The notes beneath the pieces were generated by a model. That model was not told the origin of the DNA and searched no databases. It saw only the letters and a list, made by a program, of their open reading frames with translations. DNA of 64,000 nt from an uncultured Eubacteriales bacterium (GTDB taxonomy: Bacteria; Bacillota; Clostridia; Christensenellales; Aristaeellaceae), in contig ONJM01000010.1 of NCBI GenBank assembly GCA_900318145.1, forward strand, positions 1-64,000. The letters are read 5' to 3'. The position numbers were made by a program, and so were the translations under genes. This document shows, piece after piece, positions 34,083 to 41,582 of this stretch (positions within the stretch are counted from its first letter, which is position 1; each line of letters begins with the position of its first letter).

Positions 34083-35015
34083 TTACTCCGTGAACAGGGG
34101 CGTGGAATAGTACCGGTCGCCGCTGTCCGGCAGCAGGGCAACGATAACCTTGCCCTTGTTTTCCGGCCGTTTCGCCAGTTCGATGGCGCCGTAGAGGGCA
34201 GCGCCGGAGGAGATACCCACGGAGATACCTTCCTTTTTCGCAAGCAGCTTCGCGGTTTCAAAAGCGTTTTCCGTTGTGGCGGTGAACACTTCGTCATAGA
34301 CTTTGGTGTTCAGCACGTCTGGCACAAAACCGGCGCCGATGCCCTGGATCTTGTGGGCGCCGGCGTGGCCTTCGGACAGCACGGGGGAGTCCTTGGGCTC
34401 GAGGGCGACGACTTTGATGGCGGGATTCTGCTCCTTCAGGTATTCGCCGGTGCCGGTGACGGTGCCGCCGGTGCCTACGCCGGCGATGAAGATATCGACT
34501 TTGCCGTCGGTGTCCTTCCAGATTTCGGGGCCTGTGGTGGCTTTATGGACAGCGGGGTTTGCCGGATTCACAAACTGCCCGGGGATGAAGCCGCCGGGAA
34601 TTTCCTTTGCCAGCTCCTCTGCTTTTGCGATGGCGCCTTTCATGCCCTTTGAGCCTTCCGTCAGCACCAGCTCGGCGCCGTAGGCTTTCAGGATATTGCG
34701 GCGCTCCACGCTCATGGTTTCCGGCATGGTCAGGATAATGCGGTAGCCTTTGGCGGCGGCGATGGCGGCCAGGCCGATGCCCGTGTTGCCGCTGGTAGGC
34801 TCGATGATTACGGACCCTTCTTTCAGGAGGCCTTTTTCTTCCGCATCCTCGATCATGGCTTTGGCAATCCGGTCCTTGACGCTGCCGGCCGGATTGAAGT
34901 ACTCCAGCTTCACCAGCACGGTGGCTTCCAGGCCAAGGGCCTTTTCAATGTTTGCGACTTCCACGAGGGGAGTATTTCCGATGAGTCCCAGGGTTCCCTT
35001 ATAGATCTTGGACAT
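34083..35015 (-). CDS. cysK: Cysteine synthase (O-acetylserine sulfhydrylase)
   Basis: 310 residues. PLP enzyme making cysteine from O-acetylserine and sulfide. The PLP lysine is Lys47 in NPAGSVKDR, the phosphate/substrate loop is TSGNTG (74-79) and the cofactor-side glycine loop [10 protein letters not shown] is near 178. Start at ATG35015 gives the usual N-terminus [17 protein letters not shown]; an in-frame extension to 35237 is the leader region in a different frame from the leader peptide. Expressed from a strong promoter 230 bases upstream, through a leader peptide and terminator that suggest cysteine-controlled attenuation. Confidence 0.96.
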
Positions 35016-35051
35016 AACGCAGCCTTCTTTCTTTTTCAATTTATTCCGGAC

Positions 35052-35081
35052 AAAACAAAACCGGGAGGGTACGCCTCCCGG
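35052..35081 (-). terminator. Leader terminator (attenuator) of cysK
   Basis: On the minus strand CCGGGAGG pairs with CCTCCCGG around a CGTAC loop and runs into TTTTGTTTT, 37 bases before the cysK start. Its left part CCCGGGA (35076-35082) can instead pair with TCCCGGG inside the leader ORF (35135-35141). Confidence 0.85.
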
Positions 35082-35101
35082 GTATTCAGCAATACAGGCA
35101 T

Positions 35102-35188
35102 TCAGCAACATCGAACGCCGGCACGCATGAAAACCCCGGGACGCATTATCTGCATGCGCCGACAGTGCCGCATGATACACCGTGCCAT
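35102..35188 (-). CDS. Cys/Met-rich leader peptide of cysK (28 aa)
   Basis: ATG35188 lies eight bases after GGAGG (AAGGAGG) and about 26 bases into the transcript. The 28-residue product begins MARCIMRHC and ends VRCC-stop. Cysteines are at positions 4, 9, 27 and 28, and methionines at 1, 6, 12, 15 and 21, so nine of 28 residues contain sulfur. The tandem TGT-TGC codons (35105-35110) directly before the stop lie in the loop of a 7-bp hairpin (GGCGTTC 35113-35119 with GAATGCC 35097-35103), 20-odd bases ahead of the terminator. This is the layout of a ribosome-stalling attenuator; no homologue is recognised. Confidence 0.8.
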
Positions 35189-35220
35189 CCTGCGCGCCTC
35201 CTTCCGTTCGTGTTGCGGCT

Positions 35221-35249
35221 ATTCTAACATCAATCACCTACTATGTCAA
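35221..35249 (-). promoter_or_regulatory. Promoter of the cysK leader
   Basis: Minus strand TTGACA (35244-35249), 17-base spacer, TAGAAT (35221-35226): 11/12 consensus. It lies directly behind the end of the SpoIID/LytB gene, so cysK is independently transcribed. Confidence 0.88.
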
Positions 35250-35275
35250 TAGGCGAATTAAAGATTTCAGGTTTT

Positions 35276-38591: not shown

Positions 38592-41582
38592 ATGAACCAG
38601 GGGAATTATCTCGCGTTTATCAGCTACAGGCACCGGGAGAAAGACCAGCGGGTGTCCTTCCTGCTGCGGAAGGAGCTGGAAAACTGGCATATGCCGCCGG
38701 AAGCCGCAGCAATGAAAAACCGGCGGGTGTTCCGGGATACAGATGAACTGCCGACCAGCAGCGATCTGGGCGCGGATATCGAAAATGCGCTGCGGAGCAG
38801 CGATTATCTGATCGCGCTGTGCTCGGAGGAATACCTTGAATCCAGATGGTGCATGCGAGAAGTGGAGGAATTCCTGAATATGGGCAGGAAGGAGCGGATC
38901 CTTCCCGTATTGCTGTCCGGCAAGACGGAGACCGCTGTTCCGGAGGAACTCCGTGATGTGCCGGCGGCGCTGGATCTGCGGGGAGCGGAGGGCCTGGAGA
39001 TCAGGCGCAGGATCCGTGCCGCGATACCGGATTTTTTGTCCTGGATGTCGGGCGTTCCCCGGGAACAGATCCTGGCCCGGGAACGCAGGCATCGGTGGAC
39101 GGTCGCGCTTTCCGTCGCGGCCGCGGTGACGCTTACACTGACGGGGACGGCCTTGTACGCGATCCGCACCGCGGACCGCATCTCACGGAAAAACGAAGAA
39201 ATCCAGGCCGCCACGCTTGCGGCGGAGCGGGCCCGGGCGGAAGCGGAACAGGAAAAGAAGGAAGCGCAGCTGAAAAACGCGTCCTATCTGACGGAAAGAG
39301 CCTGGGAAAAGATCGCGGAAGGAGACCAGGATGCCGCAATTGACATGGCGCTGCGGGCGCTGCCGGAGGATCTTCACGGGGACGACCGGGAACTGGTGGA
39401 GGCGGCCGGCGCCCTGCGTACGGCGCTGAGCATGCCGGCAGTCCGGAAGGAAAGCTATCAGCTATGGAAATCCCTGGAGACAGATTTTACGGTCACTGGG
39501 TGGGAACCGCTCAGGGACGGATACCTGATTCTTTCCGACGGCAGTTACGGGTCGTCCGAATGGGTCCTTGACTGCTCGGCTGGAACGATCACGGAGGAGG
39601 AAAGCGAAAACCGCCGGGAAGCGGCGGAATTTGGATACAGCCGGTTCAGCCGGATCCATTCGGGACTTGGATCCGTTATGGTGCGGCTCTTTTACGGACG
39701 GGAAAAGCAGATGCATGTTTCCTGTACCTATGAGAAAGAACCTTATGAGATCGACATGACGCTGGGAGGAGCGCCGTTTTTTGCCGACCGTATCGTGAAC
39801 GATCCGGAGGATGGATATTTTCTGGCCTGGATGGAAGCGGAAGAGGATCCGGCGGGAAGTCCGGTCGGCCTGTTTTACGCGCAGCGGGCGGAAGCGATCG
39901 CGGCGCTGAAAATCAGCGGTTTCCCGGTTTCTGTTTCCTTTGATCTCAACCACCGGCGGGTTGCCGTTGTGGACGGGGAAGGAACGCTGTCGCTGTTTGA
40001 AACGGCGACCGGGGAGAAAAAAGCGGTCGTGAAGGGCACCTGGAAACAGGTCTGTTATCCGAATACCGGCCGGTATTTCTGCGCGGTTTCGGCGGACGGA
40101 AAAGCCTATTATTTTGACGCGGTGTCGCTGAAGCCGATTCATGAATTCCGATGTGAATCCCCGGTGAAAAGCCTGTTGTATACGGACGGCGAAATCCTCG
40201 CCTGCTGTGAAAAGGGTGTCCGGATTTTCAACATGAGCGACGGGGAACAGATCTGGAGCCTGACTGCGGAAGAGGAACCGGCGGACGCTGTGTGGACGCG
40301 GTACGTCAGCAACCAGCACACGGGGTACAGGGATGGGATTGTCCTGCTGTATGAACGGCGTGCGGATATCTATCTGCTGTCCGGTGATACGGACGGTTCC
40401 CGGACCCATACTGTTTCCCTGCATCAGAGCGGAGAATCCAGCATGAACCGGAGTGTGTTTTATTCGCCGGACGGGGAATACATATACCTGGTAAAAAGCA
40501 ACGGCGGTCTGTCCAAATGGAAGGCGGCAGACGGGACATGGTGCTGGGGCATTTCCGGAGAAGGAAATATGAACGCCCAGGGTCACAGCGGGGAAATTGC
40601 GCGCCTGTCGAAGGATCCTTCCGTGTTGTGGAAATTAATCCTGAACAACGGGCACGGAATACAGAAAATCAACGCGGAAACCGGAGAGATCATCTATACC
40701 GCATTATGGGGCGAGCGGGGCAAAAGCCTGACCGCGCCGAAGGAAGACTGCACCGGAACAAGGGGCCTGGTGGAGTCTGCGTTCGCTTCCGGGCCGTTGA
40801 TTGTTTTTGACACGCGTACCGGAGACAAGATCTGGGAAAAGGATATCAATACGTGCGGAGCCGTGTTCTCTCCGGACGGAAAAGAAGTGTGGTGCATCTG
40901 GACCACATACCGGGAAGACGGGCCGATTATGCGCGATACGCAGAAATCATATTTCTGCCGGCTGGATACGGAGACAGGGGACGTCCTGGAGGAAAGAGAG
41001 ATCTGTGAAAAGTCCGGGAATGTCCGCAGGGATGTTTACCTGAACGAGGCGGAATATGCGGCGGTGGTCGTAATGGATGGACACAGCCCGGTCCGCGTGG
41101 ATTACCGGACGGGAGAAACTGTCCGCTGGGAGGATGTTGTGGTGAATAGCGGGGATGAACTGATCTTTCCCTGTGACGGCGGTACAGCGGTCCGGTGGGA
41201 GGACCGGGAAAACGACCGGACGCTGGTGCAACGGCTGAATCCGGACGGAACCGTCGGCTCGGTGCTGGACGCGGAAACACCGGAAGGCCGCAGACTGGCC
41301 GCGGACCGCCGGCAGTATGGCGTGTTTGCCGGCGAGGAAATCGTGCAGATGCCCGCGGAAGGAGAAACGGCAGTCACGGAGAAAACGGTGAGGCGCCTCT
41401 CGGACGGCGCCGTGATGATGGATCTTAAATCGGACAGGTACTATTACGGGATCACGGTTGCGCCGGACGGCAGCAGCCTCTGCATCTATGCGTATTACTA
41501 TATTCCGGTCGTCATTCCGGCGTCGGATCCGGAGACGCTGGCGGAGCTGGCGAGGCAGCATCTGGGAGGGAACGGGCAATGA
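38592..41582 (+). CDS. TIR domain - transmembrane - beta-propeller protein
   Basis: 996 residues. An N-terminal TIR domain (about 5-150) starts YLAFISYRHREKDQ, has the BB-loop box VFRDTDELPTSSDL and the SRWCMRE motif, where Glu90 matches the catalytic Glu of NAD-cleaving TIRs. One membrane helix (about 170-190) follows, then a charged coiled coil (about 195-230) and a ~750-residue region of PQQ/WD-like strands (FSPDGKEVW, DTRTGDKIWEKD, YSPDGEYIYLV) forming one or more propellers, presumably outside the membrane. Cytoplasmic signalling or NADase output with an external sensor is a reasonable model, not shown. Ribosome site GGGGGAA; overlaps the next gene by four bases. Confidence 0.88.
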   Translation: MNQGNYLAFISYRHREKDQRVSFLLRKELENWHMPPEAAAMKNRRVFRDTDELPTSSDLGADIENALRSSDYLIALCSEEYLESRWCMREVEEFLNMGRKERILPVLLSGKTETAVPEELRDVPAALDLRGAEGLEIRRRIRAAIPDFLSWMSGVPREQILARERRHRWTVALSVAAAVTLTLTGTALYAIRTADRISRKNEEIQAATLAAERARAEAEQEKKEAQLKNASYLTERAWEKIAEGDQDAAIDMALRALPEDLHGDDRELVEAAGALRTALSMPAVRKESYQLWKSLETDFTVTGWEPLRDGYLILSDGSYGSSEWVLDCSAGTITEEESENRREAAEFGYSRFSRIHSGLGSVMVRLFYGREKQMHVSCTYEKEPYEIDMTLGGAPFFADRIVNDPEDGYFLAWMEAEEDPAGSPVGLFYAQRAEAIAALKISGFPVSVSFDLNHRRVAVVDGEGTLSLFETATGEKKAVVKGTWKQVCYPNTGRYFCAVSADGKAYYFDAVSLKPIHEFRCESPVKSLLYTDGEILACCEKGVRIFNMSDGEQIWSLTAEEEPADAVWTRYVSNQHTGYRDGIVLLYERRADIYLLSGDTDGSRTHTVSLHQSGESSMNRSVFYSPDGEYIYLVKSNGGLSKWKAADGTWCWGISGEGNMNAQGHSGEIARLSKDPSVLWKLILNNGHGIQKINAETGEIIYTALWGERGKSLTAPKEDCTGTRGLVESAFASGPLIVFDTRTGDKIWEKDINTCGAVFSPDGKEVWCIWTTYREDGPIMRDTQKSYFCRLDTETGDVLEEREICEKSGNVRRDVYLNEAEYAAVVVMDGHSPVRVDYRTGETVRWEDVVVNSGDELIFPCDGGTAVRWEDRENDRTLVQRLNPDGTVGSVLDAETPEGRRLAADRRQYGVFAGEEIVQMPAEGETAVTEKTVRRLSDGAVMMDLKSDRYYYGITVAPDGSSLCIYAYYYIPVVIPASDPETLAELARQHLGGNGQ

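Follow-up and report, generated by a model that had tools for sequence, protein, structure and literature searches.

In attenuation of the trp and his type, a leader open reading frame (ORF) contains codons for the amino acid that the pathway makes, the RNA can fold as either antiterminator or terminator, and an intrinsic terminator precedes the gene. In trpL, the end of the ORF also folds back on the ribosome site of the leader. TnaC represents a different principle, in which a metabolite makes the nascent peptide stall its own ribosome.

Several leaders have been described for cysteine. One computational report gives 145 examples of uORFC-8-2, all upstream of cysS in Rhodobacterales (PMC8632094). 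In actinobacteria, cys operons and cbs are reported to be preceded by a short ORF whose Cys codons lie close to its end (PMC1262725). A third report presents T-boxes as the described clostridial cysteine attenuators and places cysK of C. perfringens under a Cys T-box (PMC2940859). According to a 2010 survey, amino-acid leader peptides had been shown only in Proteobacteria and Actinobacteria until the survey itself described a His leader in bacilli (PMC2965389), and a Leu-rich attenuator peptide is reported for S. aureus (PMC5794164). Our search of the open-access literature found no cysteine leader attenuator in Clostridia.

The DNA analysed here (the window) is a stretch of 64,000 nucleotides from an uncultured Eubacteriales bacterium. 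On its minus strand, a leader is flanked by a SpoIID-like gene and cysK. We propose that the leader family to which it belongs acts by trp-type ribosome-mediated attenuation, governed by the supply of Cys-tRNA and placed behind a probable Rrf2-controlled promoter; from the sequences we put the probability of this reading at roughly three in four. The parts of the attenuator, their recurrence, the covariation of the antiterminator and the geometry of the codons can be read directly from the DNA. Segment 3 is able to pair with segment 2 in the antiterminator or with segment 4 in the terminator. The window elements are the following, where L032 is another cysK locus of the same genus:

35237..35253, minus strand: inverted repeat CCTATTGACATAGTAGG spanning the -35 box, probably the binding site of a repressor of the Rrf2 family
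35221..35249, minus strand: promoter TTGACA-17-TAGAAT with TG before the -10 box, from a promoter scan
35197..35203, minus strand: leader ribosome site AAGGAGG
35102..35188, minus strand: leader ORF of 28 codons, presumably translated
35162..35164, minus strand: Cys9 codon UGU, the nearest counterpart of the conserved Cys preceding segment 2, from alignment to Cys4 of L032
35135..35141, minus strand: segment 2 UCCCGGG, 5' arm of the antiterminator, read here in frame R-P-G
35105..35110, minus strand: terminal Cys27-Cys28 codons, in the loop of the hairpin 35119-35113/35103-35097
35076..35083, minus strand: segment 3 ACCCGGGA, common to antiterminator and terminator
35051..35081, minus strand: intrinsic terminator CCGGGAGG-CGTAC-CCTCCCGG with T-tract, from a terminator scan
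34083..35015, minus strand: cysK, cysteine synthase A (TIGR01139)

Direct reading of the sequence agrees with the preliminary description on the promoter, the ribosome site, the 28-codon ORF with Cys at positions 4, 9, 27 and 28 and Met at 1, 6, 12, 15 and 21, and the terminator upstream of cysK. The promoter (TTGACA/17/TAGAAT) matches 11 of 12 consensus positions and is the sole promoter-like site in 501 bases (35249-35221, minus strand; shuffle expectation 0.5). The same 501 bases hold two terminator-like sites against 0.4 expected, the second of which overlaps the promoter. The leader terminator has an 8-bp GC-rich stem followed by a T-tract and lies 37 bases before cysK. At the Cys frequency of 1.4% in six window genes, the probability of at least four Cys in 27 codons is 5e-4. 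Both pairings claimed earlier are possible: GGCGTTC (35119-35113) is complementary to GAATGCC (35103-35097), giving the 7-bp hairpin, and TCCCGGG (35141-35135) is complementary to 35082-35076 in the left arm of the terminator. At the leader ribosome site, GGCGCGCA (35198-35191) is able to pair with 35127-35120. The gene 3' of the leader had been named as cysK, and it scores 452.6 bits against TIGR01139, above the cut-off of 350.95. The leader itself folds only mildly better than its shuffles (z -1.82; 10 of 200 shuffles at least as good), and the case therefore rests on its relatives. Elsewhere in the window, positions 38592-41582 (plus strand) encode a protein of 996 aa that combines a TIR domain (PF13676) at its N-terminus with repeats resembling a beta-propeller.

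A search with the window peptide alone returned, besides the window, only weak chance-like matches (best E 0.007). A profile was then built from seven leader peptides and contained no promoter or terminator sequence. At E<=0.1 it gave matches in 97 of 308 genomes of the family, weak chance matches included. We fetched 70 loci from these matches, leaving the weaker ones aside, and a TATTGAC promoter lies upstream in 65 of them; in the other five no promoter was found, some lying at a contig end and one (L212) being used in the 87-leader set described below. Downstream of these 65 leaders, 62 genes could be assigned: metY (37), an amino acid ABC permease (11), cysK (4), MetQ/binding-protein-like (4), MetN-like (3) and PepT-like (3). 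When representatives were scanned, metY, CysK and PepT-like scored above curated cut-offs, and the likeness to MetN and MetQ below them. The PepT-like peptidase gene was recognized by model scan in L193 and by similar N-termini in L206 and L214. A motif scan of 80 loci from named records, mostly Lachnospiraceae, together with the window, gave 19 leaders, 16 of them with the promoter. Beyond the family, the profile gave matches in 8 of 396 order genomes, 12 of 391 class genomes and 5 of 388 phylum genomes; every count includes the window's own genome, and one class genome appears again in the phylum count. For the two new phylum lineages, L286 and L287 proved to be leaders and L288 did not. The distribution is patchy. 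To judge by these comparisons, the window leader belongs, as a divergent member, to a family of leader-ORF attenuators that is commonest upstream of metY.

The relatives share a UGU codon, usually followed by CGA-AUG, then segment 2 (CUCCCGGGCA), segment 3 (UGCCCGGGAG) and, last, a terminator. An alignment of 72 rows was made, of which 67 are distinct and 5 are repeats; six motif-less leaders, including the window and L032, were set aside. In these rows, the core reads UGU in 72, CGA in 67, AUG, and then a stretch near CUCCCGGGCA; the patterns used to collect these rows and the 87-leader set required Cys and Met, and those columns are not evidence. UGU is fixed at the core codon although six window genes use UGC and UGU in a ratio of 45 : 13. 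The ribosome site and start codon are nearly invariant.

Pairing between segments 2 and 3 is maintained by compensatory changes. The 87 distinct leaders examined are related and some are near-identical, so that they cannot be counted as independent events. Among them, position 21 is G-C in 80 and A-U in 7 with zero mismatches, position 22 is C-G in 82, U-G in 3 and U-A in 1 with one mismatch, and position 23 is A-U in 71, G-C in 7, G-U in 2 and U-A in 1 with six mismatches; position 24 is paired in just 30. The total over the 87 leaders was reached by none of 500 shuffles. A-U replaces G-C at position 21 in three genera (g1, g7, g30), in another family (f90, L238) and in loci L126 and L108, the last of which was missed by the 87-leader pattern and read by eye. 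In the L238 sequence as it stands, through either a true variant or a sequencing error, the ORF stops at the fourth codon past the conserved Cys (CCRMR stop), with the RNA segments and the A-U compensation intact. In a separate alignment (A3) of 66 of 67 selected references, with L204 omitted, 92.8% of cells pair in register (0 of 500 shuffles) and 14-58% when the pairing is slid by up to 3. Folding of the alignment with no structure given yields solely the 2:3 helix.

A second short helix, AUGGC:GCCAU, with GCCAU just 5' of segment 3, is paired in 88.2% of cells and shows 22 changes on both sides (0 of 500 shuffles). Pairing of the ribosome site with the 3' part of the ORF is found in 83.5% of cells (1 of 500 shuffles) and in 78.6% when slid by -2, which gives it moderate support from the alignment. 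A candidate protector helix (CGAAUGC:GCGUUCG), which would mask segment 2 in the absence of a ribosome, is paired in 78.8% of cells, a value reached by 131 of 500 shuffles; covariation lends it no support, and we do not count it as a proven part.

Conservation of the core could also reflect recognition of the peptide or of the RNA itself. A nascent peptide M-C-C-R-M-x-x-S-R-A that arrests the ribosome on a metabolite, as TnaC does, would explain the conserved peptide motif, in which C14, M16 and R20 are invariant in 23 chosen peptides. Segment 2 is read as S-R-A in most relatives, and these residues are accounted for by the pairing segment; the window and L032 use other frames, and L238 has no S-R-A, so we consider peptide arrest very improbable. 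The core and segment 2 could instead form an RNA aptamer, a riboswitch or protein site to which the ORF is incidental. The near-invariant third codon positions would fit, as would L238, which retains the RNA elements and the A-U compensation despite its early stop. The aptamer is nevertheless improbable in view of the nearly invariant ribosome site and start codon, the lack of any Rfam match at the window leader or at the eight loci tested, and the outcome of a DNA search that was blind to Cys.

This search used segments 2 and 3 alone and matched 89 of 308 genomes, compared with two matches of the reversed control. The promoter was present in 27 of 30 loci fetched, mostly from the window's genus. 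Among these 27, UGU stands at the expected codon in 25, and in the two loci with no UGU in the exact place a Cys lies one codon earlier; in all 27, Met follows two codons past the conserved Cys. We consider cysteine the likely signal.

The position of the deciding codon was modelled with a ribosome whose leading edge was assumed to lie 13 nt beyond the first base of the codon in its A site. When the conserved Cys codon occupies the A site and the ribosome masks the RNA, the downstream RNA is predicted to fold as the antiterminator in 61 of 69 leaders. This number falls to 45 of 69 one codon past the Cys and to 0 of 69 from two codons on, and with the ribosome at the stop the terminator forms in 70 of 70 scorable leaders. 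Free leader RNA (71 leaders) gives 47 terminator and 24 antiterminator folds. When both flanks are free to fold (69 leaders), the difference between stalled and free RNA is modest: the mean probability of the antiterminator is 0.54 at the Cys, 0.37 in free RNA, 0.26 at the stop and 0.00 four codons past the Cys, and the antiterminator is the minimum-energy fold at the Cys in 34 of 69. The preliminary description had raised joint sensing of methionine. This is unlikely and was rejected, as a ribosome stalled at the Met two codons past the Cys would mask segment 2 in the modelled geometry (antiterminator in 0 of 69).

For the window leader, folding predicts the antiterminator with a probability of 1.0 when Cys9 occupies the A site, falling to 0.03 four codons later. 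Free window RNA is predicted to be 94% antiterminator, and termination there would therefore need a moving ribosome. Segment 2 lies 8 nt farther from the Cys than in relatives and in another reading frame (R-P-G vs S-R-A), which argues that the RNA rather than the peptide is conserved in the window. L032, the nearest orthologous leader, runs against the attenuation model in our folding: its antiterminator probability is 0.00 in free RNA, 0.11 at Cys4, 0.32 at the terminal Cys and 0.70 at the stop.

The switch had originally been placed at the end of the ORF, where a ribosome stalled at Cys27-Cys28 would open the 7-bp hairpin. In the window, folding with the ribosome at these two codons gives antiterminator probabilities of 0.89 and 0.96, which are like those at the stop (0.96) or with no ribosome (0.94). 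L032 is more favourable to this version, with the antiterminator more probable at its terminal Cys than at Cys4, and Cys recurs as the last residue in 24 of 85 and as the second-last in 12 of 85 leaders. Since a last-residue Cys is missing in 61 of 85 relatives and the fixed codon of the family is the Cys just 5' of segment 2, a stall at the terminal pair is an improbable switch. More probably, the outcome is decided at the Cys that precedes segment 2. Of the original proposal of a cysteine leader-ORF attenuator, the competition of TCCCGGG for the terminator arm is retained, with 2:3 covariation in relatives in its favour, and the site of the stall is revised.

CysK matches were found in 42 of 45 genomes of the same genus, and the best 30 loci, window included, were read. 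The promoter repeat is present at 26 of the 30 (25 of 29 without the window). Only L032 among the 29 others has a leader ORF and terminator directly upstream. At L034, L037, L043 and L051, cysK follows a metY that bears the leader about 1.6 kb upstream on the same contig, with no promoter repeat directly before cysK. In 21 of the 29 loci just 23-62 nt separate the promoter from cysK. The cysK loci L039, L040 and L041 have longer leaders with Cys-containing ORFs, in which terminator scans gave none convincing; the short ORFs of L039 and L041 (MSRSRGCMC../MSRSRVCMC..) contain TCCCGGG. In total, 24 of the 29 have no leader with terminator, either directly or at an adjoining metY. The preliminary description had named related genomes lacking the ORF or the tandem Cys codons as evidence against it, and this is largely what is seen at cysK itself, the leader system being commonest at metY.

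These counts suit a reading in which the leader at the window's cysK is decaying as a relic, with the repressor as the only control of this gene and attenuation operating solely at metY and transporters. The operator at 25 of 29 loci, the loss of the Cys-Cys-Arg-Met core from the window, the 8 nt of added spacing and the antiterminator predicted for free window RNA point the same way, and such a relic would be compatible with trp-type attenuation in the leader family. On the other side stands the comparison with L032, which shares with the window the promoter, the ribosome site, the upstream Cys, segments 2 and 3, the terminator and a terminal Cys; the remaining codons have drifted. Window Cys9 aligns to Cys4 of L032, whose terminal Cys is single; the indels of the two leaders differ, yet the terminal Cys is in frame in both. 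We regard the relic as unlikely. By its sequence, the window leader has diverged from the family but retains segments 2, 3 and 4, the upstream Cys and the terminal Cys codons, and this copy may be weakened.

A feature absent from the preliminary description is the inverted repeat CCTATTGACATAGTAGG, which contains the -35 box of the window promoter and recurs at sulfur genes. In the window's own genome, it occurs at three exact places and one with one mismatch, at cysteine desulfurase, metY-like, cysK and MetN-like genes; nine places at two mismatches were discarded, as the reversed control matched 122 times vs 13 for the pattern. One exact copy sits between the cysteine desulfurase gene and a divergent Rrf2 gene. 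An inverted repeat common to sulfur genes and an adjoining rrf2 gene is a feature of Rrf2 (CymR/IscR-like) regulons, and the repeat is probably the operator of an Rrf2-family repressor. Because this probable operator precedes the leader, control of the window cysK is likely double, by repressor and attenuator. The metY-like and MetN-like genes of the same genome also lie behind Cys-containing leaders with terminators, and the inverted-repeat promoter is the same in 77 of 87 distinct relatives. Four leaders (L235, L236, L237 and L238) have the same core behind another promoter region in which the TATTGAC repeat was not found; leader and operator can therefore separate.

In the preferred reading, attenuation by Cys-tRNA supply, we infer translation, stalling, termination, repressor binding and a cysteine response. 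The leaders show several features typical of attenuators: a promoter followed by a ribosome site and a short ORF, pathway-product codons in a constant position, antiterminator and terminator folds that exclude each other, and, under the assumed footprint, a stall site that leaves the antiterminator arm free. With plentiful Cys-tRNA, the leading ribosome would pass the conserved Cys codon and cover segment 2, segment 3 would pair with segment 4, and transcription would stop before the gene. With scarce Cys-tRNA, the ribosome would wait with this codon in its A site, and its leading edge would come to rest immediately 5' of segment 2. This segment, together with the second short helix, would then pair with segment 3, and the polymerase would read through. 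The end of the ORF may fold onto the leader ribosome site and limit further rounds of translation.

The near-invariant CGA at the next codon (67 of 72) exceeds what stalling needs. More tentatively, and with clearly less than even odds in our estimate, the leaders may represent a widespread undescribed sulfur-control cassette of Clostridia and their kin, with the near-invariant UGU-CGA-AUG, made of codons rare in the window's genes, as a tuned decoding site rather than simply Cys codons, and with operator, Cys leader and two-part antiterminator usually found together before metY, cysK, transporters and a peptidase. A cysteine leader distributed over Clostridia, with its covarying antiterminator and sharply positioned Cys codon, would equip rumen and gut anaerobes with a sensor of amino-acid charging, make a sulfur regulon recognizable from sequence, and provide dozens of natural variants for testing the coupling of ribosome and polymerase in Clostridia.

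No match to Rfam, including the T-box family RF00230, was found at the window leader or at eight leader loci, and identity with a T-box was rejected for these. Seven leader peptides gave no match to the known leader-peptide families of NCBIfam. The window's own genome has seven T-box matches (L277-L283), three of them above the cut-off, and one lies 2.4 kb before a metY leader on contig C25.

The leader family would work like a trp-type attenuator, with the sequence-level features described above and a presumed response to cysteine. It resembles trp and his attenuation in its product-codon ORF, in the opposition of antiterminator and terminator, and in the possible pairing of the ORF end with the leader ribosome site. 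It differs in its amino acid, cysteine, in its occurrence in Clostridia, in the two-part antiterminator, in a deciding codon that is often a single or double UGU, and in the probable Rrf2 operator ahead of it. With uORFC-8-2 it shares tandem conserved Cys codons in a uORF, a terminator and a proposed Cys-tRNA-dependent attenuation (PMC8632094); unlike there, cysS is absent among the 62 assigned downstream genes of the 65 loci. The actinobacterial cys leaders are reported to have no conserved terminators (PMC1262725), in contrast to the family described here. The Cys T-box likewise causes premature termination upstream of cysK and senses the charging of tRNA-Cys, but it is a tRNA-binding RNA element with no leader ORF (PMC2940859). 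The His leader of bacilli and the Leu-rich peptide of S. aureus are likewise amino-acid leader peptides of Firmicutes, but serve other amino acids, and occur in bacilli.
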